Part shown: piece by piece, positions 22,137 to 48,381 of the stretch
Layout: each line of letters opens with the position of its first letter
Numbering within the stretch: position 1 is the stretch's first letter
Assembly: GCA_903929315.1 (NCBI GenBank)
Contig: CAIYUC010000223.1
Span: forward strand, 1 to 56,855
Reading direction: 5' to 3'
Origin: an uncultured Bacteroidales bacterium
GTDB taxonomy: Bacteria; Bacteroidota; Bacteroidia; Bacteroidales; FEN-979
Length of the DNA: 56,855 bases
Notes under the pieces: generated by a model
What the model saw: the letters and a program-made list of their open reading frames with translations, nothing else
Databases searched by the model: none
Told to the model about the DNA's origin: nothing
Made by a program: the position numbers and the translations under genes

Positions 22137-22162
22137 CCGGTAGTAAAGTAATAAAATCACGC

Positions 22163-24489: not shown

Positions 24490-24619
24490 ATTCGGTTGTC
24501 CGTATTGTCCGTCTTTTTGTCTCTTTTGCCTTTCCTTTTGTCTGCGTTGTCCGCAATCATAAATCCCATTAATAACCCTGTACTATTGCAGCAAGATTCA
24601 CTAAAAAAACTTGCGAGCA
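24490..24619. repeat. Short TTGTCCG repeats before the HTH gene
   Basis: TTGTCCG occurs three times (24496-24502, 24505-24511, 24547-24553) in a pyrimidine-rich spacer upstream of the excisionase-like gene. The first two are one helical turn or less apart. They may be protein-binding sites; nothing more is visible. Confidence 0.35.
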
Positions 24620-26118: not shown

Positions 26119-26347
26119 AAATTAAGTGGCAACATGGCTACAAGAGAAAAAAGAATAGTAAGGATAAGGGTTTTCAGTGTAGCCATGTTTTTTTTATACC
26201 GACTACAAAATGACTACATGGCTACAAGAATCAGGACAAAATGTAGCCAGGTGGTCATTGTCGCCGATGGCCACTTTGAGCTCTGTTAAAATTTATTTAA
26301 AAAGTCATTCGTAGAAAATTCAAGTAAAAATTAAATATATAAACGTC
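26119..26347. repeat. Repeat-rich gap between VapE and primase genes (possible origin or terminator)
   Basis: ACATGGCTACAAGA occurs twice (26132-26145 and 26216-26229). Its inverse, GTAGCCATGT, occurs at 26179-26188 and is followed by eight T. A partial inverse, TGTAGCCA, is at 26242-26249. The first pair can form a hairpin with a long loop ending in T-rich sequence, hence a possible terminator. GTGGTCA (26251-26257) and TGGCCAC (26268-26274) form a further imperfect stem. Such clustered repeats between replication genes could be an origin; this is not proven. Confidence 0.5.
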
Positions 26348-27181: not shown

Positions 27182-28066
27182 AGCCATGATCCTGATCCTT
27201 GATTTTTCAACAACAACCTCCTCCTTCTTTATTCTGATAGTGTAATAAAAGCTTTTGTCTTCTGCAGTACCATTGTTATATATTTATATGTAATATTTGT
27301 TATTTGAGGGTTAAAATGGCCTGTGGGATCGTCATATATCCGCTTTTGAGATCATTCTGCATGTGCACTCAACCGACCGGGCGGGTCGTGGTTTTGTGCC
27401 ATTCTTTTTTAAAAAAAAGAACCTAAAAAATTACATTGTATTGGCACTCAACTTTTTAGATAAAATGGTTTTTTTAAAATTGCCAATTCTTGACAATTTT
27501 CACCCCAAAATGGTGAAAAAAACTTATTTTTTTCTTTGAAATTTGATCACAAAGACAAAAAGAAGCAAAAAAAGAAATTTTAATCCCCTGAAAATGCCCC
27601 TTTTTTGGCATACCGATGTTTGGCATCAGTTGAACTTTTAGTTTTCTTTATAATCAGAAAGGAAGTGTAAAGTAAAATGCACATGCATCCTTAAATTTTA
27701 TCGTCGGGAACCCCTATAAATCCTATGTTTTGCGTTTTTGAATGTGAATTGGCTCGATCGGCCTACTTTTTTCTTTGAACCCAGGACAAAGCAAAAAGTA
27801 GCAAAAAAGAAATCCCTTGGCCAACGCACGGTTTAGCTCGAAATTTTCTTTCAAAGTTACCTTACGAATAATTCGCTGAAAGAAAGGATACCGAGGTGAT
27901 CGGTATGGCTTAAAACTGTAAAGGGCGACCTCCTTCCGGAATAGTCGCTTTCAGTGTATTCAGATTGATAGGCAATCGTGACCAACACCCTTGACATTAT
28001 TTATTATTCCCGGTAGTTGCCTTCGGCGTAAAAAATTTCATTTCTAACCTTTAAAACAAACGCCTT
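27182..28066. repeat. Long hairpin-rich intergenic region
   Basis: No gene was recognised in about 880 bases. Three hairpins lie in a row: AAAATTG/CAATTTT (27476-27500), TTTTCACC/GGTGAAAA (27497-27519) and a T/A-rich one (27523-27577). A fourth pairs CTACTTTTTTCTTTG (27763-27777) with CAAAGCAAAAAGTAG (27787-27801). The last two share a tail of the form GCAAAAAAGAA with hairpins at 28435-28486. A segment at 27841-27970 resembles 33521-33640. The region may carry an origin, transfer site or regulatory RNAs, but none can be named. Confidence 0.55.
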
Positions 28067-28237
28067 ATGAACGCACAAGTAAGAAACACCCAGGAACAGT
28101 CAATCGTAGAAGTCCTCACCGAAGAATTGGATCAGATCTACTACCCAGGTTATACAGAAGAACTCATCGCTTCAGAACCTGACAAGTTCGAATGGGAACT
28201 TTCAGAGTTCAAGGGTCAGTTCTCAACAAGAAATTGA
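28067..28237 (+). CDS. Small acidic protein, 56 residues
   Basis: An ATG at 28067 opens MNAQVRNTQEQSIVEVLTEE, and the frame ends RN at 28235-28237. The protein is acidic with DQIYYPGYTEELIASEPDKF in its second half. Codon use is orderly and GC-richer than the flanks, and a strong terminator follows after 13 bases, both of which argue for a real gene. No known family was recognised. It belongs with RadC to the element's conserved segment. Confidence 0.6.
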   Translation: MNAQVRNTQEQSIVEVLTEELDQIYYPGYTEELIASEPDKFEWELSEFKGQFSTRN

Positions 28238-28250
28238 TTCTTCAGACAGA

Positions 28251-28289
28251 GCAGTCAGTCCCGAAAATCGGGACTGGCTGCTTTTTTTT
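28251..28289 (+). terminator. Strong intrinsic terminator
   Basis: GCAGTCAGTCCCGA (28251-28264) pairs with TCGGGACTGGCTGC (28268-28281) around a three-base loop (one G-T pair), followed by eight T. It ends the transcript of the 56-residue gene. Confidence 0.9.
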
Positions 28290-28318
28290 ATACTCGCATG
28301 GCTCATGAAGGAGCTCCA

Positions 28319-28411
28319 CAGTATAACTCCGGGAGTTTTCGATACTGTTTTTGGATCAAATATTATCAAATGAACCACTACATAAATTGCAACTCCGGGA
28401 GTTTTTGGCAA
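28319..28411. repeat. Pair of hairpins with one core and different outer stems
   Basis: The palindromic core AACTCCGGGAGTT occurs at 28325-28337 and 28391-28403. The first copy is flanked by CAGTAT (28319-28324) and ATACTG (28342-28347). The second is flanked by TTGC (28387-28390) and GCAA (28408-28411). In both, a four-base TTCG or TTTG lies between core and right outer arm. The outer arms pair perfectly in each copy although their sequences differ. Confidence 0.7.
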
Positions 28412-28434
28412 TTTTCATGAAGTGCCGATTCATT

Positions 28435-28533
28435 CAGCTTTTTTCTTTCGATGATGGGCAAAGAAAAAAGCTGTGCAAAAAAGAAGCCCCTCACAGAATG
28501 GCTCGTTATGGCGACTTTTTAGAAAAAAGTTGC
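28435..28533. repeat. Two more hairpins of the T/A-rich family
   Basis: CAGCTTTTTTCTTT (28435-28448) pairs perfectly with AAAGAAAAAAGCTG (28460-28473) and is followed by the family tail TGCAAAAAAGAA. GCGACTTTTT (28511-28520) pairs with AAAAAGTTGC (28524-28533) and is followed by AAAAATCC. They resemble those at 27523-27577 and 27763-27815. Confidence 0.6.
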
Positions 28534-28572
28534 AAAAATCCAACCCTGTAGCAAATCGAAATTCACAAAGTT

Positions 28573-28683
28573 ATGTTCGTGAAAATGTTTTTCACCAAGC
28601 ATGACCTCCTTAAGGAACTGTCACCCTTCGGGAACATTCAGATTTTTCCGACCGGAAAAATCATGACCTGTTTACTTGCTTAA
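28573..28683 (+). CDS. Mini-ORF, copy 1 (36 residues)
   Basis: The frame starts MFVKMFFTKHDLL (or at the second ATG, 28585) and continues ELSPFGNIQIF to CLLA before TAA. A related 33-residue frame lies at 48234-48335 with MKMFFTKCDLL, QSPVGFIQIF and TLA-stop. Similarity covers the whole frame and stops at the same point, and most differences respect the reading frame. That favours a translated small protein over an untranslated repeat. It lies directly upstream of radC. No known family is recognised. Confidence 0.5.
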   Translation: MFVKMFFTKHDLLKELSPFGNIQIFPTGKIMTCLLA

Positions 28684-28739
28684 AATTTTCCACTTCGCAT
28701 GTTCAATCCGGTAAATTTCATTTACTCACTGCGGCTGTC

Positions 28740-29504
28740 ATGCTGCTTAAAACTAATCAGACTATGAAAAAATCGATCATGAAACCGGAACTTGCCCAGG
28801 AAAACGGCGAAAACTACGAAAACAGAATCCCTATGCGCCTATGGGCAGAAGATGACCTGCCAAGTCAGAAATTACTGCTGAAAGGCAATGGCAGTCTTTC
28901 CGATGCAGAATTACTCAGTATTATTATCGGCACTGGTGTTTCCGGGGAAAACTCACTTGACATTGCAAAGAAAATGCTGTCAATCTGCGGAAACAGCCTT
29001 TGCGAATTCTGGAAGTTCGGAGTCTCAGACCTGCAGAAGATCAAAGGCATTGGCGAGAAGCGAGCAGTAAAGATCTCTGCAATGTTTGCTCTGGCCCGCA
29101 GAAGAAACGAATCAGAAGTGATCCTCAAAGACAAGATCACAAGCAGCCGTGATGCTTTCGAAATCTTCAAATCACTGATGGGCGACCTGCCTTTTGAAGA
29201 ATTCTGGGTCCTGATGCTGAACAAAGCCAACCGGGTCCTTAAAAAAGTCAAGATCTCCGAAGGTGGTATTTCCGGGACTGTCGTAGATCCGAAGAAGATC
29301 TTCCAGATATGCCTGGAGCAGCATGCTTCATCCATCATTCTCGGGCATAATCATCCGTCAGGGAATATCCAGCCCAGTGAAGCTGACAACAAAATCACCA
29401 GGAAGATCAAGGATTGCGGTGTATTGCTCGATATGGCTGTTTTGGATCACATCATCATCGGGGATGACAGATATTATTCGTTTGCGGATGATGGCACATT
29501 GTAG
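28740..29504 (+). CDS. radC: RadC-family JAMM-domain protein
   Basis: The protein has up to 254 residues. The start may be the ATG at 28740, 28764 or 28776; the shortest begins MKPELAQENGENYENRIPM. The N-terminal part reads RLWAEDDLPSQKLLLKGNGS and LSDAELLSIIIGTG (RadC/UPF0758). A helix-hairpin-helix segment follows (LQKIKGIGEKRAVKISA, about 105-120). The metal site is EHASSIILGHNHPSGNIQPS with the later Asp (H-x-H-P-S-G...D), the JAMM motif. RadC proteins are frequent on integrative elements and in anti-restriction regions; their reaction is not established. A terminator follows. GC is higher than in the defence genes that come next. Confidence 0.9.
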   Translation: MLLKTNQTMKKSIMKPELAQENGENYENRIPMRLWAEDDLPSQKLLLKGNGSLSDAELLSIIIGTGVSGENSLDIAKKMLSICGNSLCEFWKFGVSDLQKIKGIGEKRAVKISAMFALARRRNESEVILKDKITSSRDAFEIFKSLMGDLPFEEFWVLMLNKANRVLKKVKISEGGISGTVVDPKKIFQICLEQHASSIILGHNHPSGNIQPSEADNKITRKIKDCGVLLDMAVLDHIIIGDDRYYSFADDGTL

Positions 29505-29531: not shown

Positions 29532-29711
29532 AATTTACTTTAATCACATTAAATTTTATTTATATGGTTTTTTTAAGGTCGAATTTATTAGTATTGTTTG
29601 TGCAATTGCAGTTTAAATTGGAATTTTGGTTTAATTTTACTGATTGAGGATAAAGTAAAAAGCAAAAGTTTTTTAAAATCATGTGAACTTCAAAGAAACA
29701 AACTTAATTGT

Positions 29712-31589
29712 ATGTATTTATCAAATGTAAAAATTGAAAATTTTAGACAGTTTAGGTCAATTGATTTAAATTTTCAAAAAGGTTTAAATCTGCTTGTTGG
29801 AGAAAATGATTCGGGCAAATCATCCATTATTGATGCAATAAAATTTGTTACTGGTACTCAAAGTAACGATTGGATAAGACTCGATAAAGATGATTTTTAC
29901 ACCGATGGGACTACAAGAGCAGTTGAATTAAAGATAATTTGTACATTTTTCGACTTAAGCAAAGAAGAGGCTGCTGCATTTCTTGAATGGTTGAGCATTT
30001 CTGATGGGAAATATTATTTGAAGCTTACCCTAACTGGTCGACGAAAAGAAAAAAGTAATTCAATCTCAGAAGTGTTTTATGATACCAGGGCTGGTGAGGA
30101 TGAAGAAAGTGGAATGATAAGCGGCGAAGCAAAATCAAAATTAAGGGTGACATATTTAAAACCATTGAGAGATGCTGAATACGAATTAGCTCCACGAAAA
30201 GGTTCTAGACTTTCACAAATTCTTGCCGCTTACGATATTTTTCAAAAGAATGATGGAGGGAGACATCCGCTTGAAGAAACTATGGATAAAGCAAATCTGG
30301 AGGTAAAAGATTATTTTGAAAATAAAGATGGAAAGCAAGTATCGGACACTATTAATTTGAACTATTTAAAAGAATTTTCCCTTTTAAATAACCCTTTAAC
30401 TTCAAAGTTTGGAATTACCCAAAACGATTTAGGACGAATTCTTGAAAAACTTGAACTGCAAGGCCTATCAAAAACTAATGAATCAAATTTAGGACTTGGT
30501 TCAAATAATTTACTTTTCATCGCGGCTGAAATGTTACTTTTAAAGAAGGATACTGGCTATGTAGGATTAAAACTCTCTCTAATAGAAGAAATTGAAGCCC
30601 ATCTGCATCCGCAAGCACAACTAAATCTTATTGAATTTCTTAATAAACAATCAGAAAGTCTTGGTTTTCAGTGCATCATCACATCACATAGTAATTCATT
30701 GGCATCAAAAGTTGATTTAAATAATTTGATCATTTGCAAAAATAGTAATGCTTTTTCTTTAAAAAATGAAGAAACTAATCTGGATCCTGGAGACTATGAG
30801 TTTCTTAGACGATTTATAGATGATACAAAAGCAAATTTGTTTTTTGCTAATGGCGTTATAATTGTAGAAGGTGATGCTGAAAATTTAATATTACCCACTT
30901 TAGCGGATTATATTGGTCTCCCATTGCACAAATATGGTGTTTCAATTGTAAATGTTAGAAGTACTGCTCTTTTACGCTATTCTAGAATCTTTCAAAGAAA
31001 GGATGGAAATAGCATTGGTATAAAAGTTTCTTGCATCACCGATAGGGACATTCCACCTAAAGAAGCTAAGGAATTTACTTACGAGGTAAAAAGACGTGGC
31101 ACTGGGACATTAGAACAAGTAAATCTATTAAGCGATACTCGAAAAACGGAAGATGAATACACTTTAGATGAAATTTTAGAAATTGTCACTGAAAAGAAAA
31201 ATAAATATACTTTAGGAGATGTTCAAACTTTTCTACCAAATACATGGACACTAGAATTTGAAATTGCAAAGAGTTGTTTGCGAAAAATAATGCACAAGTC
31301 AATTATTATTGCTTTATATACAAACAATCTTGAAAGGATCATCAGTAAAGAAATTATTGAAGGAAAATTGAAAGAGGAAAATGATAGATGGGTAAAAGAA
31401 AACAAAAATGAAAACCAAATTGCAGTTGAAATATATGCTCCTTTGGAGCGTAAACTTGCATCAAAAACCGTGGTCGCTCAAATTTTCTCACGCATACTAG
31501 CAAAATCCCAAATAGAGAAAGATTTAATCCAACATGATCCACACCTCAAGTATTTAATTGATGCCATCAAACATGTTACCAAACTTTGA
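29712..31589 (+). CDS. OLD-family ATPase-TOPRIM nuclease, Gabija GajA-like
   Basis: The ATG at 29712 (MYLSNVKIENFRQFRSIDL) is the usual OLD start and gives 625 residues. The ABC-type ATPase part has Walker A LLVGENDSGKSSIIDAI (about 27-43) and Walker B LSLIEEIEAHLHPQ (about 286-299), followed by the His of ITSHSNSL. The TOPRIM nuclease part has IIVEGDAENLILPTL (about 382-396) and CITDRDIPP (about 441-449), whose Glu and DxD residues bind metal. Its gene overlaps that of a UvrD-like helicase. This pair is the layout of Gabija and of class 2 OLD systems, in which the nuclease cuts phage DNA. It is slightly longer than the typical GajA. The region is AT-rich, suggesting recent transfer. Confidence 0.88.
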   Translation: MYLSNVKIENFRQFRSIDLNFQKGLNLLVGENDSGKSSIIDAIKFVTGTQSNDWIRLDKDDFYTDGTTRAVELKIICTFFDLSKEEAAAFLEWLSISDGKYYLKLTLTGRRKEKSNSISEVFYDTRAGEDEESGMISGEAKSKLRVTYLKPLRDAEYELAPRKGSRLSQILAAYDIFQKNDGGRHPLEETMDKANLEVKDYFENKDGKQVSDTINLNYLKEFSLLNNPLTSKFGITQNDLGRILEKLELQGLSKTNESNLGLGSNNLLFIAAEMLLLKKDTGYVGLKLSLIEEIEAHLHPQAQLNLIEFLNKQSESLGFQCIITSHSNSLASKVDLNNLIICKNSNAFSLKNEETNLDPGDYEFLRRFIDDTKANLFFANGVIIVEGDAENLILPTLADYIGLPLHKYGVSIVNVRSTALLRYSRIFQRKDGNSIGIKVSCITDRDIPPKEAKEFTYEVKRRGTGTLEQVNLLSDTRKTEDEYTLDEILEIVTEKKNKYTLGDVQTFLPNTWTLEFEIAKSCLRKIMHKSIIIALYTNNLERIISKEIIEGKLKEENDRWVKENKNENQIAVEIYAPLERKLASKTVVAQIFSRILAKSQIEKDLIQHDPHLKYLIDAIKHVTKL

Positions 31590-33483
31590 TTTCAAAAGCT
31601 TAATATTCACAACGGAGGAAATCGCATTCGTTGAGAACCACTTTGGGTTTAATTTCAATGAGGGTCAAAATAAAATTATCAGATTCTTAGATAAAACTGA
31701 TATTCAGGCTTGTCCAGGAAGTGGGAAAACAACAACTCTGGCCGCTAAACTTATTATTTTAGCTAATAGAATTCCGAAATCATTTAAAGAAGGGATTTGT
31801 GTAATCACTCATACAAATGTTGCTGTGGGTGAAATTCAAAGTAAACTTGCTTCTTATTCAAGCTTCTACTTCAATTATCCAAATCACTTTGGAACTATTC
31901 AGTCCGTTGTTGACAAATTTTTAACTATTCCAGCTTATAAAAACAAATTTAAAACTTCTCCTATCATTGATAATGATTCCTACTACGATATAATTGAAAG
32001 AACAAACAGTCAGGATATAAAGAAAGCTAAATACTATTTAAGCGCGAATAAAGGAATAGAATTTTTAGGCGGATTATCCTTCAACAAGATCAATTTTGAT
32101 ATTTCAATTGATATTAATGAACCAGAGCCAATCGTTGGGAAACATACTCCTACTTATGCCACTTTGCTTAAACTGAAAAATGATCTATTCCAGAAAGGAT
32201 ATATTAAATATGAAGAAGCTTATTCAGTTGCTTTTAAATATATTAGAGAGAATCCGCAATTACTTGATCTTTTTCACAGGAGATTTCCTTTAGTTTTTAT
32301 TGATGAAATGCAGGATATGGAAACTCATCAATCAGAACTTTTAAGTTATTTGTTTGATGCTACCCCTGCGATAGTTCAAAAAATTGGCGATATCAATCAA
32401 TCTATTTATAACTATTCGTCTTCTGAACATCAAAAAGAATGGACACCAAAAATAAATTTGGAATTACAACTGACTGAAACAACAAGAATTTCAGAGAATA
32501 TTGTAAAGATTATCAAAGATATATGCCTATCACCGCAAGAAATGAGAGGATGGATAAATCCCAAGCCGCTAAAACCAACCATTATAGTATTTACAGACAG
32601 CACAATTCTTAACGTTAAGGACAAATTTGGAGAATTATTAATTCAACATAATATTTATCAAGGAAGAGTTTGTAAAGCAGTTGGAGCAAGATTAAGCGAT
32701 TCTCGTTTAAATATTAATTCTTATTGGAATGAATTTAACCGCGGGGTTAACAAAAAAGATTTCTCAAACCTTATTTCATTTCTTGAATATTTAAAACAAA
32801 TTATAGTTCAAAGTAACAATGTAAAAGAAGGAAGAAAAGCAATACTAAGTATTTTATGTAAATGTTTACGACTTAGTAAAATCAAAAATCCATTATCGGA
32901 ATTTTATTTTACTCCGTTTACTTTAGTTCAATATCTCCGTTCTACTAATATAGACCAATTAACCACAATTAATCTCAACATTGCAAAGTGGATACTTGTT
33001 ATATCTGAAACCGAATTGATAAAAGGTGAGATTGAAAAATGTGTATCGAATCTTATTACTGCATTTAATGGCCAAAATAATGAAGAATTAATACAATTTT
33101 TTAAAACCTCTGAAATTGAATTACCAGGTGAGAAATTAGAAAATAGAATTTATACATTTGCTAAGGATGGACATGAAGTGCAAATTCATTTTGATACTAT
33201 TCATGGAGTTAAAAGTGAAACACATGAAGCAACTCTCTATTTAGAGACATATAACCGTATTTATGACATTGGAGGAAAAATTTTTGAATTTATAACCAGT
33301 AATGATCAACAAAAAGCAAAATATCGAAAAAATGAAGCCTTCAAAAAAAGATTACCACTTGCATATGTTGCAATGACTAGAGCGACTTCTTTTATTTGCT
33401 TAGCTATTCATGCTGACAGATTCTTAGAAAAATATAGAACTTATTTTGAGGGAAATCCGGATTGGGATGTTAAATATCTTTAA
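31561..33483 (+). CDS. UvrD/PcrA-like SF1 helicase, Gabija GajB-like
   Basis: The start is the ATG at 31561 or 31573, both inside the end of the OLD nuclease gene (overlap 17-29 bases), so translation is coupled. The roughly 640-residue protein has Walker A ACPGSGKTTTLAAKL (about 51-65), Walker B VFIDEMQDME (about 244), IGDINQSIYNY (about 279) and motif VI LAYVAMTRATSF (about 600). These are the SF1A helicase motifs. In Gabija, GajB senses nucleotide or DNA state and activates or assists the nuclease. This protein is longer than the reference GajB, so it may belong to a sister subtype. Confidence 0.88.
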   Translation: MPSNMLPNFDFKSLIFTTEEIAFVENHFGFNFNEGQNKIIRFLDKTDIQACPGSGKTTTLAAKLIILANRIPKSFKEGICVITHTNVAVGEIQSKLASYSSFYFNYPNHFGTIQSVVDKFLTIPAYKNKFKTSPIIDNDSYYDIIERTNSQDIKKAKYYLSANKGIEFLGGLSFNKINFDISIDINEPEPIVGKHTPTYATLLKLKNDLFQKGYIKYEEAYSVAFKYIRENPQLLDLFHRRFPLVFIDEMQDMETHQSELLSYLFDATPAIVQKIGDINQSIYNYSSSEHQKEWTPKINLELQLTETTRISENIVKIIKDICLSPQEMRGWINPKPLKPTIIVFTDSTILNVKDKFGELLIQHNIYQGRVCKAVGARLSDSRLNINSYWNEFNRGVNKKDFSNLISFLEYLKQIIVQSNNVKEGRKAILSILCKCLRLSKIKNPLSEFYFTPFTLVQYLRSTNIDQLTTINLNIAKWILVISETELIKGEIEKCVSNLITAFNGQNNEELIQFFKTSEIELPGEKLENRIYTFAKDGHEVQIHFDTIHGVKSETHEATLYLETYNRIYDIGGKIFEFITSNDQQKAKYRKNEAFKKRLPLAYVAMTRATSFICLAIHADRFLEKYRTYFEGNPDWDVKYL

Positions 33484-33799
33484 ATTTTGAATTGTAATAA
33501 TAAACGATTCCACATTAAATTGAAATTCCCGCAAAATTACCTACGAAAAATTCGCTGTACATTTTAAACCTTATATGGCAACCTCCTATTGGAATTATCG
33601 ATTTTTGAGTGTTTCCATTCCGATCTACCGGAATGACAATGATTGTTTATATTTTTGTATTGGTTTTTACTTAATTTTACACGGTCCGCAGTTATTTCAT
33701 TTGTAATAAAGAATATAATCAGTTCCAGCGTTATGATTTCATTTGGAGTATTTTTATTAATACTGAGAAGTTATATCAAAGGAATTCATAAACCCCTCA
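33484..33799. other. Intergenic with relic repeat and small hairpin
   Basis: No gene was seen. Bases 33521-33640 resemble 27841-27970 (shared words TTACCT-ACGAA-AATTCGCTG and GGC-ACCTCCT). A small hairpin pairs CATTCCG with CGGAATG near 33617-33636. The promoter of the RM operon should lie here. Confidence 0.45.
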
Positions 33800-35827
33800 A
33801 TGGATCACGAATCAGAGAATGCTACTAGAAAGCATAGAATAGACCATCAATTGAAGGATGCAGGTTGGCATCTCTGCAGTTATTCAGAGGGTTTAAACCT
33901 TGCATTGCTGGATAAATATGCCTTAACTGAATTCCCGACTGATAATGGACCCGCTGATTATGCTCTTTTGGTCAATGGAATATTATTGGGCTTTATTGAA
34001 GCAAAGAAATTGGAGGTGGGTGCTGAAAATGTTCTGGAACAAGCTAAACGGTATTCAAAAGGGGTTATAAATACTATCGGTGAATGGAATGGTTACAGGG
34101 TACCATTCTTATATTCATCAAATGGTGAGCTTATTTATCACCTGGATGCCAGGGAAGAAAGAAATTTAAGCCGGCAGATTTATTGTTTTCATACACCTGA
34201 ATCACTTGAATCCACTTTCTTTGACAACAAAGCTAAAGCATTTGAATGGTTGAAGGATAAACCCATCGATAACCAGGGTTTACGTCCTTATCAGAAAGAA
34301 GCTATCCAGGAATACGAAAAGTCTTTGATGGATGGTAAACGCCTGATGCTTTTAGCAATGGCCACGGGAACCGGAAAAACTTTTACAACGGTTGTCCTTG
34401 TTTACCGCATGCTGGTATCGGGGTATGCCAAACGAATCCTTTTCCTTGTTGACCGTAAATCCCTGGCTGCGCAGGCCGTGACAGCCTTTGCTTCATTTGA
34501 TACTCCAAGGAATATCAAATTCAAAGACGAATACGAATTGTATTCCCAGCGCTTCAGAAAAGAGGATTTTGAAGATGAACCCTATGATCCAACAGTTTTG
34601 CCCAATTCTTACCTGACTAATCCTGACGGAACAAAGACTTTCCTTTATATCTGTACCATCCAGCGTATGGCGATGAACCTATATGGAAAGGCCGGTGCAT
34701 TCATTGATGACGAAGAAACCGAGGATGACGAAGATACACTTCGAATACCTTCCCATGCCTTTGACCTGATCATTGCTGATGAATGCCATCGCGGTTACAC
34801 ATCAAAGGAAACCAATGTCTGGCGGAATGTATTGAACCATTTTGATGCTGTTAAAGTTGGTCTGACTGCAACCCCAGCATCCCATACCGTAGCATATTTT
34901 CAAAAACCTATTTTTAGCTATCCGCTTCAACTGGCTATTGATGAAGGTTTCCTGGTCGATTATGATGCTGTTGCTGTCAATTCAGATGTCCTGATGAATG
35001 GTGCCTTTCTGAAAGAAGGGGAACAGGTGGGTGTTATCGATACTGAAACAGGCCGTGAACTGATCGATCAGTTAGAGGATGAACGGGAATTTACTTCAAC
35101 TGAGATCGAAGAAAAGATCACTGCACCGGATACTAATCACAAGATCATCAATGAACTTAAAATATATACCGACGATTTTGAGCACCAATGGGGCCGGTTT
35201 CCAAAGACCCTAATATTTGCTTCTAATGATATTCCGATGATCTCTCATGCCGATCGTATTGTGAATATCTGTAAATCCACCTTCAACCGTGGAGATGATT
35301 TCGTAGCTAAGATCACTGGCAGCCCTACGGTTGACAGACCACTAAGGAAGATCAAAGAATTCCGCAACCGGCCTAACCCAAAAATTGTTGTAACTGTGGA
35401 TATGCTAAGCACTGGGGTAGATATTCCAGCACTCGAATTCATTGTCTTTTTGCGGCCAGTTAAATCCCGCATCTTATGGGAACAGATGCTTGGACGAGGT
35501 ACCCGTCGATGCGATGAAATCGGGAAAACCCATTTTGTAATCTTCGATTGTTTCAACGGAACATTGATCCGTTATTTTAAAAATGCCAGTTATAATTTTA
35601 AGATTGACCCGCCAGGTTCTGACACGATCTCGATCAGAGAACTTATTGAGAAAATATATAATAACGAGGATCGTAAAGCGAATGCCAAGAGATTAAGCAA
35701 ACGACTTCAGAGGATTGAAAAGGATATGAGTGGGAAGGCCCGGGATCAATTTTCAATGTTCATCCCTGATGGAGACATGGGGAAATTTGCAGAACATCTG
35801 GCTAAATATTTTGATAAATACAAATAA
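33800..35827 (+). CDS. hsdR: Type I restriction subunit R, N-terminal and helicase part (second RM system)
   Basis: The 675-residue protein opens with the HsdR nuclease domain: GPADYALLVNGILLGFIEAKK (PD...ExK, about 50-70). SF2 helicase motifs follow: ATGTGKT (about 188-194), IIADECHRGY (about 322), VGLTATP (about 352), MLSTGVDIPALEF and LWEQMLGRGTRR (about 535-575). It stops at a TAA that overlaps the ATG of the next frame (TAATG). That frame encodes the EcoEI_R_C-type domain that normally completes this subunit, so HsdR is made as two polypeptides or the gene is split by mutation. It cuts unmethylated DNA together with HsdM and HsdS encoded next. Confidence 0.9.
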   Translation: MDHESENATRKHRIDHQLKDAGWHLCSYSEGLNLALLDKYALTEFPTDNGPADYALLVNGILLGFIEAKKLEVGAENVLEQAKRYSKGVINTIGEWNGYRVPFLYSSNGELIYHLDAREERNLSRQIYCFHTPESLESTFFDNKAKAFEWLKDKPIDNQGLRPYQKEAIQEYEKSLMDGKRLMLLAMATGTGKTFTTVVLVYRMLVSGYAKRILFLVDRKSLAAQAVTAFASFDTPRNIKFKDEYELYSQRFRKEDFEDEPYDPTVLPNSYLTNPDGTKTFLYICTIQRMAMNLYGKAGAFIDDEETEDDEDTLRIPSHAFDLIIADECHRGYTSKETNVWRNVLNHFDAVKVGLTATPASHTVAYFQKPIFSYPLQLAIDEGFLVDYDAVAVNSDVLMNGAFLKEGEQVGVIDTETGRELIDQLEDEREFTSTEIEEKITAPDTNHKIINELKIYTDDFEHQWGRFPKTLIFASNDIPMISHADRIVNICKSTFNRGDDFVAKITGSPTVDRPLRKIKEFRNRPNPKIVVTVDMLSTGVDIPALEFIVFLRPVKSRILWEQMLGRGTRRCDEIGKTHFVIFDCFNGTLIRYFKNASYNFKIDPPGSDTISIRELIEKIYNNEDRKANAKRLSKRLQRIEKDMSGKARDQFSMFIPDGDMGKFAEHLAKYFDKYK

Positions 35828-36513
35828 TGGCAAAACCTTTTTTAGAAATATTTGACAGCTTTAGCAATATAATGGAATTACTCCGTGATGGGAAATTTCA
35901 GGACCTGCTTGTCAATTATGAACGGGCTAAAAAGGTGTTCCTTGTTGGCTATGAGGTGCAGGACAGTGTTGGATCATGGACGGTGTTCGAAGCGGAAGAT
36001 CGCAGCGGTCTTAAACCCGAAGACTATCTCATAGCTTTCTCTCAATTTATTAAAAGGAAGGAAAAGGAGATCCAGGCCATTGCCATTTTGTTGAATAAGC
36101 CAAAAGATTGGAATACCAAAGCACTGAATGAACTCCGCAATAAGCTGAAAGAAAGCAAATATGATGAGGCAAACTTACAAAAGGCACACCAGATTGTCTA
36201 TCATAAAGACGTTGTGGATATTATCAGCATGGTTAAACATGCTGCCAATGAAACGGAACCCCTGTTAAGCCCAGAAGAAAGAGTGGTTAAAGCCATCCTG
36301 AGAGTAACTGAAGGTAAACACCTCAATGACGAACAGCAGAAATGGATGGAATACATCAAGGAACACCTTAAACAAAATATGACACTTGATGAGGAAGACC
36401 TCAGGAAATTGCCCGTGTTTACAGACAGGGGAGGATTAAGCAGGTTCAAGAAAGTATTCCCGGCTGAATATCAAATTATCATTAAAGAAATAAACCTGGC
36501 AATAGCGGCATAA
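35827..36513 (+). CDS. C-terminal part of HsdR (EcoEI_R_C-like), separate frame
   Basis: The 228-residue protein reads IMELLRDGKFQDLLVNYERAKK in parts, then helical sequence such as IVYHKDVVDIISMVKHAA and SPEERVVKAIL. It ends GGLSRFKKVFPAEYQIIIKEIN, the C-terminal domain of EcoEI-type HsdR. This domain docks the motor on the methylase core. The ATG overlaps the stop of the preceding frame (TAATG), which favours reinitiation by the same ribosomes. The first dozen residues (MAKPFLEIFDSF) have no match in intact relatives as recalled, which argues for a genuine separate start rather than a fresh stop mutation. HsdM follows after four bases. Confidence 0.8.
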   Translation: MAKPFLEIFDSFSNIMELLRDGKFQDLLVNYERAKKVFLVGYEVQDSVGSWTVFEAEDRSGLKPEDYLIAFSQFIKRKEKEIQAIAILLNKPKDWNTKALNELRNKLKESKYDEANLQKAHQIVYHKDVVDIISMVKHAANETEPLLSPEERVVKAILRVTEGKHLNDEQQKWMEYIKEHLKQNMTLDEEDLRKLPVFTDRGGLSRFKKVFPAEYQIIIKEINLAIAA

Positions 36514-36517
36514 CTAT

Positions 36518-37924
36518 ATGAGCGATGTTGTAAATAAGCTGTGGGGCTTCTGCCACACACTAAGACACGAAGGAATTGATTATAATGATTACATTGAACA
36601 ACTTTCTTTTTTACTCTTCCTCAAAATGGCAGATGAAAAGGAAGTTCACCTGACTGAAAAATACAACTGGCAGGCCATGAAGAATCTGAGCGGTGGTGAT
36701 CTCATGGATCATTACACCGATACCCTTCGTGAACTGGCCAAAGAAAAAGGTTTGCTCGGTGAGATCTTTACCCAGGCACAGAACCGGTTCAATAACCCGG
36801 TAAGCCTGAAAAAGTTGCTCAACCTTATCGAAGAAGACGAATGGACCTCTATGGATGTGGACGTGAAAGGTGCCGCCTTTGAAGGCCTTCTGGAGAAGGC
36901 TGCCAGTGAAGGGAAAAAAGGAGCAGGCCAGTATTTTACACCCCGGCCATTGATACAGAGCATGGTCAGGATGATGAAGCCGGATCCTCGTGGCAAGAAA
37001 ATCTTTACTATTTCTGACCCGGCATGTGGTACCGGGGGGTTCCTTGTATGCGCCTATGAATGGCTCATGTATGAATGTAAAGGTGCATTGCCCCGGGAGG
37101 ATGTAAAGCGAATCCTGGAGAGTACCTATTACGGTCAAGAGCTGGTAGCTAGGCCCAGGAGACTAGCCCTGATGAACTTGTACCTGCATGGAGTTATCCC
37201 GAAAATTAAACTTGGTGATACCATTTATAATTCTCCGGGAAGTGACCGGTTTGATGTTGTCCTGGCAAATCCTCCATTTGGAACCAAAGGAGCAAATCAG
37301 GCCCCTGAAAGGGATGATTTCACCATTGAAACCAGCAACAAGCAACTCAACTTTGTCCAGCATATCATGAGCACGCTTAAAACAGGAGGCAGAGCAGCAA
37401 TTGTTCTGCCTGATAATGTTCTTTTCGAGGATAAAGCTGGTGAAGTATTCGAAATTCTGATGCAGGATTGTAACCTACACACCATTCTTCGTTTGCCACG
37501 AGGTACATTTACCCCTTATGCACAGGGTGTAAAAGCCAATGTGATCTTCTTTCAGAAGGGGTTACCGACAGAAAAGGTATGGATCTATGATAACCGAAGC
37601 AACATTGAAGGCATAACCAAGAAGGATCGGCCTCTGACAGCAAAGCATTTCGATGAATTTGAAAAGGTATACGGAACTGATCCCAATGGAAACAGTACCC
37701 GGACTGACCAGGGCGAAGTTGGCCGGTTCCGCTGCTTCACCGTGGAAGAGATCAAAAAACGAAATTACAAGTTAGACGTTACCTGGCTGAAAGATGACAG
37801 TATTGAAGATGCTGACAGCATGCCGGAGCCATCTGAATTGGCGACGGAGGCCATTACCGAAATGGAAGCAGTTGTTGATGATTTACGTGAAATTTTAACC
37901 CTTCTTGAAAGCAATGGAGAATAA
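36518..37924 (+). CDS. hsdM: Type I DNA methylase subunit M (HsdM), second RM system
   Basis: The 468-residue protein opens with the helical HsdM domain (LWGFCHTLRHEGIDYNDYIEQ and LSFLLFLKMADEKE). GQYFTPRPLIQSMV and DPACGTGGFLVCAYEWL (about 167-183, S-adenosylmethionine site) lead to LANPPFGTKG (about 249-258, catalytic NPPF). It methylates adenine in the target selected by HsdS, protecting host DNA. Length is normal. The end overlaps the HsdS start by 11 bases, which couples their translation. Confidence 0.93.
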   Translation: MSDVVNKLWGFCHTLRHEGIDYNDYIEQLSFLLFLKMADEKEVHLTEKYNWQAMKNLSGGDLMDHYTDTLRELAKEKGLLGEIFTQAQNRFNNPVSLKKLLNLIEEDEWTSMDVDVKGAAFEGLLEKAASEGKKGAGQYFTPRPLIQSMVRMMKPDPRGKKIFTISDPACGTGGFLVCAYEWLMYECKGALPREDVKRILESTYYGQELVARPRRLALMNLYLHGVIPKIKLGDTIYNSPGSDRFDVVLANPPFGTKGANQAPERDDFTIETSNKQLNFVQHIMSTLKTGGRAAIVLPDNVLFEDKAGEVFEILMQDCNLHTILRLPRGTFTPYAQGVKANVIFFQKGLPTEKVWIYDNRSNIEGITKKDRPLTAKHFDEFEKVYGTDPNGNSTRTDQGEVGRFRCFTVEEIKKRNYKLDVTWLKDDSIEDADSMPEPSELATEAITEMEAVVDDLREILTLLESNGE

Positions 37925-39302
37925 TATACCTCAAGGTTGGGTTGAATGTAGTCTTGGTGAAATTCTCATTGCAAAGAAAGGGAAAAAACCTACAACCACC
38001 ATTGATGAGCCAAAACCAGGTTATGTTCCCTACATTTTAATCGATGAAATGGAAGGCAAACCAATTCGGTTTTATACGAATGACCCTAAAGTTTCTGTAA
38101 TTGATGAAAATGAAGTTTTACTAGTATGGGATGGGAGTATAGGCAAATGTGGCAGCGGGTTGAATGGTGCAATTGGTTCTACATTGGTAGGTCTAAAAGC
38201 ACAGGATAAAATTCCAACTAAATTTCTTGAGTACACTATCAGGCAACAAAATACTTTTATAAAGGAAACAAGCACAGGAAGTGGTTTACAACACATCAAT
38301 AAGGATTTTTTCGACATCTGTAAAATTAAGCTACCACCTCTTGCGGAGCAAAAACGAATTTTAGATAAACTCAATGCCATCTTTGAAAAACTAGAAACCA
38401 GCAAAAATCGTCTTGAAAAAATACCTAAAATTCTGAAAAGATTCAGGCAAAGCGTATTAGCTTCTGCTGTTAATGGCAAATTAACAGCGGATTGGAGAAA
38501 TATGAATAAAGTTATTGAATCTTCTATTGATTTCATTAATAGAATAAAAACAGTGGAAACCGAAACTGAAATTTTAGCATGTGAAGTATCTAACACATGG
38601 ATTTCGGTACGAATTGGAGAAGTATTCGAGATAGTTAGAGGCTCATCACCTCGTCCAAAGAAAGATGAAAGATACTTTGCTAAATCCAAAACAGTATATC
38701 ACTGGATTATGCTCTCAGATTTTACAGATAATACAAAAAATGATGTCTTATATACTACTAACGAATTTCTGACACAAGAAGGGGTAAGGTTTAGTAGATA
38801 TGTCAATCAACAAGATGTATTAATTGGCGTTAGTGGTGTTTATGGTGTTGGTAGAACTTGTTTGCTTGATATTGAAGGATATATTTATGATGGCATTATG
38901 GCCATAAAAAGTGTTAGTGAAATTTCATTTAGAAAATTTATTCATTACTTTTTACTTCTACAGAGAATGAAATTCATGGAGGTCGCTACAGGAACATCAT
39001 GGCCAAATATAAATACTAAAATTTTAAAAGAATATGTATTCCCTGTTCCACCGCTTGCAGAACAAAATGAAATCGTAAAAAGGGTTGAGCAACTATTTAC
39101 GTTTGCTGATAAAATAGAAGCTCGTTATACCAAAGCAAAAGCCCTGCTTGACAAATTACCCCAAAGCATTTTATCTAAGGCATTCCATGGCGAGTTGGTC
39201 CCACAAGAACCAAGTGATGAGCCAGCGAGTATTTTACTTGCAAGGATAAGAGCCAAGAAAGCAATAAAGATAAGAGTATCCGGAAAGAGACGAAAATATT
39301 AA
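37914..39302 (+). CDS. hsdS: Type I specificity subunit S (HsdS), second RM system
   Basis: The ATG at 37914 (MENNIPQGWVECSLGEILIA) gives 462 residues; the ORF extends to a TTG nine bases earlier. There are two target-recognition domains (about 1-145 and 215-375). Each ends with a conserved spacer (LPPLAEQKRILDKLNAIFEKLE and VPPLAEQNEIVKRVEQLF in parts) that sets the distance between half-sites. The C-terminus is basic. It determines the bipartite DNA sequence methylated and restricted by the complex. It overlaps HsdM by 11 bases, and the PLD-like gene begins seven bases after its stop. Confidence 0.92.
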   Translation: MENNIPQGWVECSLGEILIAKKGKKPTTTIDEPKPGYVPYILIDEMEGKPIRFYTNDPKVSVIDENEVLLVWDGSIGKCGSGLNGAIGSTLVGLKAQDKIPTKFLEYTIRQQNTFIKETSTGSGLQHINKDFFDICKIKLPPLAEQKRILDKLNAIFEKLETSKNRLEKIPKILKRFRQSVLASAVNGKLTADWRNMNKVIESSIDFINRIKTVETETEILACEVSNTWISVRIGEVFEIVRGSSPRPKKDERYFAKSKTVYHWIMLSDFTDNTKNDVLYTTNEFLTQEGVRFSRYVNQQDVLIGVSGVYGVGRTCLLDIEGYIYDGIMAIKSVSEISFRKFIHYFLLLQRMKFMEVATGTSWPNINTKILKEYVFPVPPLAEQNEIVKRVEQLFTFADKIEARYTKAKALLDKLPQSILSKAFHGELVPQEPSDEPASILLARIRAKKAIKIRVSGKRRKY

Positions 39303-39308
39303 GTAATT

Positions 39309-40580
39309 ATGATAAGCAAAAAATTGTCCATAGAGTTTTTATCAAAGGAATTCATAAAAAAGGTTGATGAATGCTGGGTGGCAAGTGCCTTGGTTACAGA
39401 ATGGGCGTTTGAATTGTTTCAGCGGAATATCCCCCAAGGTGCAAAACAGCACTATTTATTTGGTGTTCATATAGTAAGTTCTCCAAATGCTTGGGAGAAG
39501 GTATTCAATTGTGCCGTGAATAATTCAAACATTTCAGTTCGCATTTATAGCAGATCTTTTTTTCATCCTAAATTGTACATTTTTTTAACAGATGGGAAAT
39601 ATGTCGCGTTCGTAGGATCTGGCAATTTTTCTGAAGGAGGATTTGCTAAAAATGAAGAACTCTTTATTAAGACAGGTGACCAGGATTTATGCATTGCATT
39701 GATCGAGTGGTTTACTTGTCATTATGATAACGGTCATGATATCACGGTGGCGTTTATAGAATCGTGTAAGAATATCTTCCGATCTAAAACTTTTGGAGAA
39801 AGCGAATCAAATAGGGAACTGACTTTATTAATTGACAGGTTAAATAACAACTTTAACCTTGATAATATTGATTTCTCTGGTCAATTTTTTGGAAAGATTC
39901 ATCATGAGGCTTTTTCTCCAGAAAAAATATCTTTGGACAATCCAGTTGTCAAAATAGAGCGCGATAGAGTCAGGATTCGGATGTTTGATCTGCATGATTT
40001 AATAATAGAGGAGTTGCCAGATGAATGGAATATTCATCATCATTATGAGACCGAACATATAGTAAGTTCGAGTGATCCTAACAACCAACCGGAACAAAAA
40101 ATTTCCGGTATTTGGATTGCATATGGCAGGGATAAAGATGAGCTGAAAAGATACAGCCAAGAAGCTACCCCTTTGTATTATATGCGACTCCAGGTAATTA
40201 TTCATTATGATAGTGTTGGCATCTGGTTGATGCCTGGAAAAAAGGATGGGAGCGTTGAGGATCGGCAGTATTTTGCTTCAAGGATCAAAAATGAGGAAAC
40301 ATACCGGAATTCGTTTTTTGAACTTCTGTCGAATCTTGGTACCGAATTTTTTATAGAAGTCGCTGGCATTGTCAGATATGTCAGCGAGTTTAAGGATGCA
40401 GATGAACTTGCAAGCTTTGTTCTAGAGGATAATTGGCGGCATTATTATTTCATTATCGGACGAAATTATCCTCTTGGAGCACCTGAACTTTTATCCACCA
40501 ACATTGAAAATACAGTAATTAGTAATTTTTCTTTATTAAGGCCATTGTACCGGTTGATGAAAGATAAAACATTTGAATAG
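39309..40580 (+). CDS. Phospholipase-D-like protein in the RM operon
   Basis: The 423-residue protein has a PLD-type half-site at about residues 84-115: FFHPKLYIF, then VAFVGSGNFSEGGFAKNEE. The HxK and the GSGNFSxGG-xxNxE pattern are typical of PLD-fold nucleases or helicase-associated PLD domains. The Asp four residues after the Lys is not present (Leu instead), so activity is uncertain. The remaining 300 residues are not recognised. No signal peptide is present. It starts seven bases after HsdS and is followed by two PD-(D/E)XK genes, so it should be part of the same defence transcript. Confidence 0.7.
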   Translation: MISKKLSIEFLSKEFIKKVDECWVASALVTEWAFELFQRNIPQGAKQHYLFGVHIVSSPNAWEKVFNCAVNNSNISVRIYSRSFFHPKLYIFLTDGKYVAFVGSGNFSEGGFAKNEELFIKTGDQDLCIALIEWFTCHYDNGHDITVAFIESCKNIFRSKTFGESESNRELTLLIDRLNNNFNLDNIDFSGQFFGKIHHEAFSPEKISLDNPVVKIERDRVRIRMFDLHDLIIEELPDEWNIHHHYETEHIVSSSDPNNQPEQKISGIWIAYGRDKDELKRYSQEATPLYYMRLQVIIHYDSVGIWLMPGKKDGSVEDRQYFASRIKNEETYRNSFFELLSNLGTEFFIEVAGIVRYVSEFKDADELASFVLEDNWRHYYFIIGRNYPLGAPELLSTNIENTVISNFSLLRPLYRLMKDKTFE

Positions 40581-40626
40581 CCATTTTTATGTAAAAAAAT
40601 CCGTTTGAGCATTTAATAAAAGAAAC

Positions 40627-41559
40627 ATGAATAAATGGTCTTATCCACGGTACAGCAATTTCCGTGAAGAACAAAACAGAATAGCTAGTGAATATTTTAA
40701 ATCAAAAAAGGTTGACCGGGATGAAAAATATACCTTTATCTTAAAGAATCGGAAAGAATGGACTGAGCATAACATTATTCTTCCTGCAGTCGCAAATTAC
40801 ATTATTAACGAGCGGCAGAGGAGAATTACTTCGCTTTCTCCCAGTGATCCATTCCCTTTGCACAAATATATCCATCACGGTCTGAGCAGTCAGGCTATGT
40901 TGTTCAATCTTATTTGTCATCCAGTCCTTGATAAAAATTATGCTTTTTTTAATGATTTGTTCGGATTTCATGATATCATGATTGACACCAGCTATACGTT
41001 AAAATTTGAACATTCCTGTCGCGAAACATTCATGGAGGAACAACAACAGCCAACTTCGTTTGATTTTGTCGTTCTGGATGAAACGAAAACGAAGAAAAAC
41101 ATTTTCTTAGAAGCCAAATACGTCGAAACGGAGTTTGGGAAATGCTCTACCATCGAGAACGGCGAATGTGATGGGCAAAACCCCATTTCAGATCCAGATC
41201 TTTGTTATCTTACCCACAAGGGCAGAACATATTGGGATAAAATGAAAAAGCATCACTTAGACGACTATTATATGGATTCACCCATTTGTCCACTTGCTAT
41301 TTATTACCAATTTTTCCGTGAATTTCTTTTTGCATTGGAGAACAATGGGTATTTTGTGTTACTAATTGACAAAAGAAATCCTGCTTTTGAAAAGTTTGGT
41401 ATAAATGGGAAAAGGGGTCTGATCCCAACACTATTTAGTCGAATACCACGAAGGCATCAAGACCAGTTCAAGGTCATTTATATTCAAGATGTATTGCCAG
41501 TCCTTGAACAACATGGCTATACATGGGTAGGTGAGTTTCGTAAGAAATATGGCATGTAA
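40627..41559 (+). CDS. PD-(D/E)XK nuclease, PGN_0703-like
   Basis: The 310-residue protein contains TSFDFVVLDETKTKK followed by NIFLEAKYVETEFGKC (about residues 141-170), giving the D...ExK active site of a restriction-type nuclease. The EAKYVETEFG.C block and a later Cys (PDLCYLTHKGRTYWD) recall the PGN_0703 group of putative restriction enzymes found in Bacteroidota. The N-terminal 100 residues are helical. It lies 46 bases after the PLD-like gene on the same strand. Target and trigger are unknown; the PGN_0703 label is from memory of the family and should be checked. Confidence 0.7.
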   Translation: MNKWSYPRYSNFREEQNRIASEYFKSKKVDRDEKYTFILKNRKEWTEHNIILPAVANYIINERQRRITSLSPSDPFPLHKYIHHGLSSQAMLFNLICHPVLDKNYAFFNDLFGFHDIMIDTSYTLKFEHSCRETFMEEQQQPTSFDFVVLDETKTKKNIFLEAKYVETEFGKCSTIENGECDGQNPISDPDLCYLTHKGRTYWDKMKKHHLDDYYMDSPICPLAIYYQFFREFLFALENNGYFVLLIDKRNPAFEKFGINGKRGLIPTLFSRIPRRHQDQFKVIYIQDVLPVLEQHGYTWVGEFRKKYGM

Positions 41560-41589
41560 CATTTTTTAATAAAGAAAATATTCAAAGAC

Positions 41590-41994
41590 ATGAGTGAAAT
41601 CCCGAGTAATAGCACAGGCCTTTCAGGTGAGTATTTTGTTGCGGCCGAACTATATCGTCGTGGATGGTTAGTCGGAATGACGATCGGAAATGCAAAATCG
41701 GTGGATGTTTTTGCTGAAAAAGATGATAAAAGAGTAGCAATACAGGTTAAGGCAATCTACAAGCGAAAAAATGTAGGTTGGCCAATTATGTTAAACAAAA
41801 TCAAGAATGGCTGTTTCTATATTTTTGTCAGCCTGAATGCCGACAAAATGGAACATCCTGTTTATTATATTTGTACTTCAAAGGAAGCATCCTCTAAAGT
41901 AAAACAATATGAAACAAGGGGAATAATTTATCTGTCATCATTAAATTCTGAGACTTTTAAAGGCAATTGGGAGAAACTTGAGAAAAAATTATAA
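41590..41994 (+). CDS. Small PD-(D/E)XK-fold protein
   Basis: The 134-residue protein reads LSGEYFVAAELYRRGW, then SVDVFAEKDDKRVAIQVKAI (about residues 37-56). This fits the E...D...QxK arrangement of a minimal PD-(D/E)XK nuclease of the Holliday-junction-resolvase or DUF4365 kind. The remainder is a short beta-rich tail (GCFYIFVSLNAD, YYICTSKEA). It starts 30 bases after the previous gene and two bases before the DUF262 gene, so all are co-transcribed. It may cut DNA alone or supply a nuclease to the neighbouring GmrSD-like protein. Confidence 0.65.
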   Translation: MSEIPSNSTGLSGEYFVAAELYRRGWLVGMTIGNAKSVDVFAEKDDKRVAIQVKAIYKRKNVGWPIMLNKIKNGCFYIFVSLNADKMEHPVYYICTSKEASSKVKQYETRGIIYLSSLNSETFKGNWEKLEKKL

Positions 41995-41996
41995 AC

Positions 41997-43838
41997 ATGA
42001 GTAAATTAGCTAATAAGATTGAAGCGCACGATCGTTCCATTTCAGAAATTATGGACGACAAGAAATATACTGTTGACTATTTCCAACGTGAGTTTAAATG
42101 GGAAGAACGGCACATTGAGCAGCTTATCTCCGACCTTACTTCTTCGTTTTTAGATGAGTATCAACCAGAACACAAGCGAAAAGACATAGAGAATTATAAT
42201 TCTTATTACTTAGGCCCTTTCGTCGTAAGCATAAAAGATGGTCAGCGAAGTATAATTGATGGGCAACAACGCCTTACGTCTCTTACTTTGTTGCTTATAT
42301 ATCTGAATAATCTTCAAAAGGAATTGGGGTATAATGAAAAATTAGAACAACTGATCTTTTCAGAGAAATTTGGTGAAAAGTCTTTCAATATTCAAGTCGA
42401 AGAAAGAATTCTGTGCCTTGAAGCCCTTTTCAACAATGAGGAATACATACCAAAGGAAGATGATGATGAATCGACTATAAATATTGTTGCACGCTACAAT
42501 GACATTCAGAAAGCCTTTCCTGAGGAAATAAAAAATGGAATTCTTCCTTTCTTCATTGATTGGTTAAAATACAATGTGATAATGGTTGAAATTATTGCAT
42601 ATTCTGATGAGAATGCATACATAATTTTCGAAACCATGAATGACAGGGGGCTCAACCTCACCCCAACTGAAATGCTGAAGAGTTTTATTCTGTCCAAATT
42701 TACGGACAGTAAAAAAAGGCAAAAAGCCAATGAATTATGGAAAAAATCCATGCAAACTTTGCATGATTACGATAAGGATGAAGACCAGCGATTTATCCAG
42801 GCATGGTTCAGAAGTCAATACGCGATAACAATAAGGCCAGGAAAAGCCGATTCAAAAAATGAAGATTTTGAAAAGATTGGTACACGTTTCCACAGTTGGT
42901 TCAGAGATAATTTGGATAAAGTTGGTCTGACAGATGAAAAATCTGATGATTTTGAACTATTCATCGATTCCGATTTTAAATTCTTTCTAAAAATCTATTT
43001 AAACATTCTTAATGCTGAGCGGACATTTACCCCTGAACTTGAATACATATACTATATAAAGCGATGGGGTATTGCAAATTCATTAGGCTATCCCTTGCTT
43101 ATGGCTCCTTTGACAAAGAATGATGATGAAGAAACGGTATTTAAGAAAATGAATATGGTTGCAAGGTACATTGAAACATTCGTCGTTCGTCGTTCCGTCA
43201 ATTTCAGATTATTTGCTTCTAGTTCGATACGGTATACAATGTATACTCTCGTAAAAGAGATAAGAAACAAAAACCTGTCCGAACTCCAGACAATATTAAA
43301 GCGTAAACTGACCGAAATGGAAGAATCATTTGAAGGGATAAGGAATTTTAGATTACACGGCCAGAATAGATATTTCATAAAATTTTTGTTGTCAAGGATG
43401 ACAGCATTTGTTGAACAACAAACTGGAATGAGTTCATCTTTTGAAAAATATTTCCACAATTCCAATGGAAAACCTTTTGAGGTTGAACATATATGGGCAG
43501 ATATGTTTTACGAACACAGAGATGAGTTTGATCAGGAGAGGGATTTTCAAGAAATTCGCAACCGATTTGGCGGATTACTTCTCCTGCCAAAAGGGACCAA
43601 TCAATCATTCTCCTCAAAACCCTACATTCAAAAGCTGCAGCATTATGTCAAAGAAAATCTTATTGTTCAATCATTATGCGAGTTAACATATCAGAACAAT
43701 CCCAACTTCCTCACAATGAAAAACACGCTTAATCTGCCATTTGTGCCGCATAATGATTTTAAAAAGCAAGATATAGAGCAAAGGCAAGAATTGTATCAAT
43801 CTATTTGTGAAAGAATTTGGGATATTCAGAAAACTTGA
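41997..43838 (+). CDS. DUF262/DUF1524 protein, GmrSD-type IV restriction-like
   Basis: The 613-residue protein has the DUF262 start DYFQREFKWEERHIEQLISDL with SIIDGQQRLTSLTLLLIY (about 85-102); the DGQQR motif binds and hydrolyses nucleotide in relatives. DAYIIFETMNDRGLNLTP-like sequence follows. The C-terminal DUF1524 domain has FEVEHIWADMF (about 493-503) and NRFGGLLLLPKGTNQSFSSK (about 521-540), which carry the His/Asn of an HNH-like nuclease. GmrSD-type proteins cut modified phage DNA, and related proteins work in phosphorothioate-sensing systems. It ends an apparently continuous operon that begins with the type I R gene at 33800. Length is in the usual range. Confidence 0.85.
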   Translation: MSKLANKIEAHDRSISEIMDDKKYTVDYFQREFKWEERHIEQLISDLTSSFLDEYQPEHKRKDIENYNSYYLGPFVVSIKDGQRSIIDGQQRLTSLTLLLIYLNNLQKELGYNEKLEQLIFSEKFGEKSFNIQVEERILCLEALFNNEEYIPKEDDDESTINIVARYNDIQKAFPEEIKNGILPFFIDWLKYNVIMVEIIAYSDENAYIIFETMNDRGLNLTPTEMLKSFILSKFTDSKKRQKANELWKKSMQTLHDYDKDEDQRFIQAWFRSQYAITIRPGKADSKNEDFEKIGTRFHSWFRDNLDKVGLTDEKSDDFELFIDSDFKFFLKIYLNILNAERTFTPELEYIYYIKRWGIANSLGYPLLMAPLTKNDDEETVFKKMNMVARYIETFVVRRSVNFRLFASSSIRYTMYTLVKEIRNKNLSELQTILKRKLTEMEESFEGIRNFRLHGQNRYFIKFLLSRMTAFVEQQTGMSSSFEKYFHNSNGKPFEVEHIWADMFYEHRDEFDQERDFQEIRNRFGGLLLLPKGTNQSFSSKPYIQKLQHYVKENLIVQSLCELTYQNNPNFLTMKNTLNLPFVPHNDFKKQDIEQRQELYQSICERIWDIQKT

Positions 43839-48178: not shown

Positions 48179-48233
48179 GAGCTACTCATCACCCCACGCA
48201 CTATTACTCAAAATTTACAGCAAAATTAAACTC

Positions 48234-48335
48234 ATGAAAATGTTTTTCACTAAGTGTGACCTCCTGACGGATCAGTCACCCGTTGGGTTCATTCAGATTT
48301 TTGAAGTAAAAAATCTGACCCGAACACTTGCTTAA
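48234..48335 (+). CDS. Mini-ORF, copy 2 (33 residues)
   Basis: The frame starts MKMFFTKCDLL, continues QSPVGFIQIF and ends TLA before TAA. It is a diverged copy of the mini-ORF at 28573-28683; both share KMFFTK, DLL, SP, IQIF and a final LA-stop. It lies between the SSB-tip gene with its terminator and the gene at 48431. Conservation within the frame supports translation. No known family. Confidence 0.5.
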   Translation: MKMFFTKCDLLTDQSPVGFIQIFEVKNLTRTLA

Positions 48336-48381
48336 AATTTTCATTCCGTTTGTGGCATTCAGCATAAATTTTTTATAAACC

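Follow-up and report, generated by a model that had tools for sequence, protein, structure and literature searches.

A type I restriction-modification operon with four accessory nuclease genes at its 3′ end in an uncultured Bacteroidales bacterium

A run of eight genes in the genome of an uncultured Bacteroidales bacterium joins a type I restriction-modification (RM) system to four further genes for nuclease-like proteins. This arrangement raises the question of whether the eight products form one composite defence machine, as the original prediction for this locus proposed, or whether independent nucleases have been stacked at the end of a type I operon. We analysed the locus within a 56,855-nt stretch of DNA (termed the window), which derives from an assembly of 4.3 Mb in 244 contigs. 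Protein families were assigned to its open reading frames (ORFs) by profile scans with Pfam, NCBIfam and PADLOC.

The type I core and its surroundings

The eight ORFs all lie on the + strand between positions 33800 and 43838, and the first four encode the adjacent parts of a type I RM system. Specifically, the N-terminal part of HsdR (33800..35827), comprising a PD-(D/E)XK nuclease domain and the translocase, matches the Pfam families HSDR_N, ResIII and Helicase_C (PRK11448, 3.6e-139). The C-terminal domain of HsdR is encoded by a gene of its own (35827..36513; Pfam EcoEI_R_C, 5.7e-35) that overlaps the preceding stop codon in the sequence TAATG. The HsdM adenine methyltransferase (36518..37924) matches N6_Mtase at 1.2e-64 and HsdM_N, and its translation contains an NPPF motif. 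It is followed by the HsdS specificity subunit (37905..39302), in which two stretches match Methylase_S (6e-35), corresponding to two target-recognition domains.

A single-chain HsdR is usual in type I RM systems, though not strictly defining of them, and here the chain is divided, in its linker, between two ORFs that overlap. The predicted split is present in the sequence but is unusual, in that all sampled homologues are fused. Homologues of the N-terminal part in 14 other genomes and of the C-terminal part in 5 genomes lie without exception within single long frames (707-1171 aa). Relative to the nearest fused relative (L137), the window HsdR has about 20 extra linker residues. A frameshift artefact is disfavoured as the cause of the split, since these extra residues and the TAATG overlap make a genuine split likelier; an assembly or sequence error could still lie behind it. 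Because both parts keep their domains, a working two-piece subunit appears likelier than a wreck.

Gaps between neighbouring ORFs in the run range from -20 to +46 bases, with the four accessory genes at gaps of 2-46, whereas the gaps that flank the run measure 316 bases upstream and 149 bases downstream. The co-directional, tight spacing that had been predicted is thus real, and the difference between internal and flanking gaps makes one transcript plausible. Judged from this spacing, the hsd and accessory genes are likely to be transcribed together. Promoter and terminator scans of the operon performed at about chance level and do not define the ends of this transcript, and the operon showed no complete match to a promoter of the Bacteroidota type. 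The GC content is 0.41-0.46 in hsdR and hsdM and 0.35-0.37 in hsdS and the accessory genes. This variation is consistent with separate origins of the genes but is no proof of them.

Outside the operon, the region upstream is rich in other defence genes, and the operon is part of this larger defence island. A complete Gabija pair, GajA/GajB (29598..33483, + strand; PADLOC GajA 3e-202, GajB 3e-147), lies directly upstream of hsdR beyond the 316-base gap; its GC content is 0.30-0.32, and the start of GajA is probably near 29712. Further upstream, at 15886-21754, a second type I RM locus encodes HsdR, a fused HsdM-HsdS (869 aa) and a small protein, 3 bases apart. The small protein has a weak RiboL-PSP-HEPN match and is possibly an RM-linked HEPN toxin. 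Genes at 22106-29504 for a tyrosine integrase, a VapE-like protein, a CHC2/Toprim primase and RadC suggest that the defence genes are carried by an integrated mobile element. Together, the Gabija pair, the second RM locus, the HEPN-like gene, the integrase, VapE and the primase fit repeated acquisition of cargo. In addition, a direct repeat of about 120 bases (28566-28690 and 48221-48342; 80% identical, 19.65 kb apart) flanks RadC, the Gabija pair and the RM operon. Its source may be a small ORF with a paralogue (MKMFFTK...) or, alternatively, an old boundary of an element.

Four accessory nucleases

Apart from the PGN_0703 type given to the second accessory protein, the family assignments of the original prediction hold for all of the genes, through profile scans and, for the smallest protein, a fold match. 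The first accessory gene (39309..40580, + strand) encodes a nuclease of the PLD superfamily, which matches PLDc_2 above the cut-off (2e-7) and RE_NgoFVII (7e-6) and contains one HxK...GSxN motif, reading HxK...GSGN in the translation. A structural model of this protein is of modest quality (pLDDT 61) and matches the PLD structures of SauUSI, Zucchini and NgoAVII R. Alignment indicates that its C-terminal domain corresponds to a separate ORF in another genome (G172). We also observed a 27-base match between positions 33766-33792 and 39332-39358 (24 bases identical, with a 19-base exact core), which joins the hsdR leader to codons 9-17 of the PLD gene and is either a chance similarity or the trace of a rearrangement.

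The second accessory protein (40627..41559, + strand) is a PD-(D/E)XK nuclease of the REase-ARP family (Pfam PF22558, 7.2e-41). The profile match spans residues 10-309 with a score of 141 against a cut-off of 27, so that it is full-length, and the PD-(D/E)XK residues D146, E162 and K164 are invariant in 25 aligned sequences. A literature search returned nothing on the meaning of ARP in this name, and nothing on PGN_0703.

The third protein (41590..41994, + strand), with 134 aa, is a small Hjc-like PD-(D/E)XK nuclease. Its sequence match to PD-(D/E)XK is marginal (0.011), but its AlphaFold model (pLDDT 88) matches I-Ssp6803I and archaeal Hjc resolvases with Foldseek E-values of 3e-5 to 1e-3. 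This fold is accompanied by the D...(D/E/Q)xK signature. D39 and K54 are invariant in 12 aligned sequences, and at position 52 most members carry Q in place of D/E, giving a QxK signature.

The last gene (41997..43838, + strand) encodes a GmrSD-like type IV restriction protein in which both DUF262 (GmrSD_N, 3.9e-32) and DUF1524 (GmrSD_C, 1.7e-8) are present, together with a DGQQR motif. HEC-06, BrxU and Eco94GmrSD likewise combine DUF262 and DUF1524 in one chain. The PADLOC HEC-06 model matches the window protein at 3.6e-37; the best-matching stretch, however, is confined to the N-terminal half, and the substrate is a predicted one. With nuclease folds or domains and catalytic motifs present throughout, all four accessory proteins look catalytically intact.

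Distribution of the accessory genes

A composite system would be expected to recur as the same set in independent genomes, and in the genomes searched this set does not. Co-occurrence was counted over one sample of 296 genomes from the phylum, where relatives were found in 3 genomes for REase-ARP, 10 for the PLD protein, 11 for the small nuclease and 7 for the GmrSD-like protein (at a stringent cut-off). All four families are together only in the window's own genome. The sole other overlap consists of weak hits to the PLD protein and the small nuclease in one genome, which is at chance level (0.31 expected). Within this sample the four genes lie mainly apart from each other, an outcome that the original prediction had named as counting against it. 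At the DNA level, the accessory block has no copy in the 100 nearest genomes, among them the single congener listed and 42 further members of the family, and the operon has none in plasmid records. Searches of plasmid records gave no relatives of the PLD or REase-ARP proteins, searches of phage records gave none of the PLD protein or the small nuclease, and scans of viral contigs with the REase-ARP, GmrSD-like and PLD proteins gave none either.

Elsewhere, close relatives of each gene occur alone or beside other defence genes. Across 84,980 species genomes, 50 REase-ARP loci were detected, none of which has the full set or a close PLD relative (some flanks are short). A conserved partner for REase-ARP was rejected, as clustering of the neighbours at these loci gave none; they are varied defence genes, such as those of Druantia, DISARM, type IIG, Dpd and type I systems. 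Two further REase-ARP contexts were observed. In two unrelated bacteria (L021:4112-6698 and L037:2023-5551) the gene directly adjoins one for a DUF2357 plus PDDEXK_7 protein, and in a Deltaproteobacteria contig (L033:2104-5754) the domain is C-terminal in a 1217-aa open frame whose N-terminal 799 aa have no Pfam match. Relatives of the small nuclease at 57-63% identity follow HsdS in one genome (L064); in another (L100) they come after a PLD-plus-helicase pair, and in a third (L101) they occur without such direct partners. GmrSD relatives with 60-65% identity are solitary in Pantoea and adjoin an HsdR-type gene in Aeromonas; the one genome of the same family with a GmrSD gene, among the 100 nearest, has it beside Fic and a different type of HsdR. 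Close relatives of the PLD protein are few, and its neighbourhood statistics, drawn from two fetched loci, are correspondingly thin.

The predicted link to type I RM is likewise not borne out for two of the genes, since any type I-like gene lies within reach in only 7 of the 50 REase-ARP loci and 3 of the 11 small-nuclease loci fetched. Some pairings do recur in type I operons. One operon of a Chloroflexi bin (L017) has the order HsdM-HsdS-DUF3800-DUF262-REase-ARP-orf-HsdR, and another locus (L015) has HsdS-orf-DUF262-HsdR with REase-ARP 3.7 kb further on. In a third (L064:9216-15742), HsdR-HsdM-HsdS is followed by the small PD-(D/E)XK protein and then by a DUF4365 protein. DUF262 adjoins HsdM in 2 of 15 type I loci of HsdR relatives (L146, L147). 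Of the 24 close REase-ARP loci, 4 have DUF262 within 10 kb, and two of those 4 are type I loci; of the 26 distant ones, none has it. Members and order differ at each locus with recurring accessories. The recurring pairs thus speak for accumulation in type I operons rather than for one conserved unit.

Parallel or coupled action

The arrangement in the window matches a known habit of type I loci, in which accessory nucleases are embedded (RloF, TgvAB and PrrC). GmrSD homologues are frequent in type I loci, and type I RM is their most frequent defence neighbour (PMC4619093). TgvAB of VPI-2, a GmrSD-family DUF262/DUF1524 system that lies inside a type I operon, confers restriction of phages whose DNA is modified, so that both unmodified and modified DNA are restricted from one operon (PMC11411939). 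It is, however, a two-protein system within its operon, whereas both domains are in one protein here, which sits after hsdS beside three other nucleases. Campylobacter type I loci carry the DUF262 protein RloF and other R-linked ORFs (PMC4619093); RloF lies between hsdS and hsdR, whereas all four accessories of the window follow hsdS. PrrC, an anticodon nuclease in the EcoprrI type IC locus (PMC12707154), is also an accessory effector nuclease in a type I operon, but it is an RNase guard, and none of the four window genes resembles it.

The unrelated neighbourhoods of each of the four genes elsewhere argue for a stack of defences that work independently, as is known from other loci, and against a single new machine. 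We consider it quite probable that the locus is a type I RM operon with four autonomous, interchangeable accessory nucleases at its 3′ end, probably co-transcribed and acting in parallel. HsdM2S would methylate host sites, and with the two-piece HsdR, made from overlapping genes, it would translocate on and cut unmethylated DNA. The DUF262/DUF1524 protein is most likely a modification-dependent enzyme of the GmrSD/HEC-06 type, predicted to cut phage DNA that escapes the type I enzyme through its base modifications. For the PLD, REase-ARP and small Hjc-like proteins, the most likely role is that of separate nucleases for further DNA states or structures. In such a layered anti-phage defence, the nucleases would share expression without forming a complex, and co-expression from one promoter would suffice to explain the gene order.

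Closer forms of cooperation were weighed against this layered restriction. In a composite system, HsdMS/HsdR would recruit or license the four nucleases as back-up or effector cutters, following a PrrC-like guard logic triggered when the type I enzyme is engaged or blocked. The tight co-directional spacing, the apparently intact nucleases, the PrrC precedent and the Chloroflexi operon with DUF262 and REase-ARP are all compatible with this. But the searches gave no second copy of the set, the four families do not co-occur in the 296 genomes outside that of the window, close homologues of each gene occur alone and REase-ARP is mostly found away from type I RM. We regard the composite system as improbable, and keep it as a rival because PrrC shows that guard-type coupling exists in principle. 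A still stronger form, in which the type I enzyme would have all four nucleases as its obligate or conditional effectors, whether in a new multi-nuclease restriction complex or in a guard cascade upon a type I block, seems to us very improbable. A narrower linkage is a tentative possibility, in which type I RM and DUF262 (perhaps with REase-ARP) complement each other against unmodified and modified DNA while the PLD protein and the small nuclease are passengers. It draws on the DUF262 genes at 4 of the 24 close REase-ARP loci and inside 2 of the 15 related type I loci, and on the TgvAB and RloF precedents. However, DUF262 is common in defence islands, so the 4 of 24, read with no background rate at a matched threshold, may be background, and the DUF262 proteins of those loci are divergent from that of the window. 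Four nucleases in a row with gaps down to 2 bases, versus one or two in most comparison loci, exceed what is usual, and together with the recurring pairs of type I with DUF262 and of DUF262 with REase-ARP they leave room for some functional coupling.

The locus might instead be a decaying pile-up, the remnant of a degenerating island with a broken hsdR and functionless passengers. We give this little probability. The split of an HsdR that is fused in all sampled relatives would fit such decay, but it sits in the linker, leaves both domains whole, comes with a gain of residues and has a TAATG overlap suited to coupling, and every other ORF is intact with its catalytic residues.

The exact combination of genes belongs to no named system, as had been predicted, and REase-ARP is absent from the PADLOC models. 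The locus nevertheless shows clearly how nucleases can be stacked behind the hsd genes, and with it REase-ARP, small Hjc-like and PLD nucleases join the known type I-linked accessory genes. Furthermore, REase-ARP and the small Hjc-like nuclease, which both recur in other type I operons and which PADLOC does not recognise or barely recognises, become candidate stand-alone defence genes.
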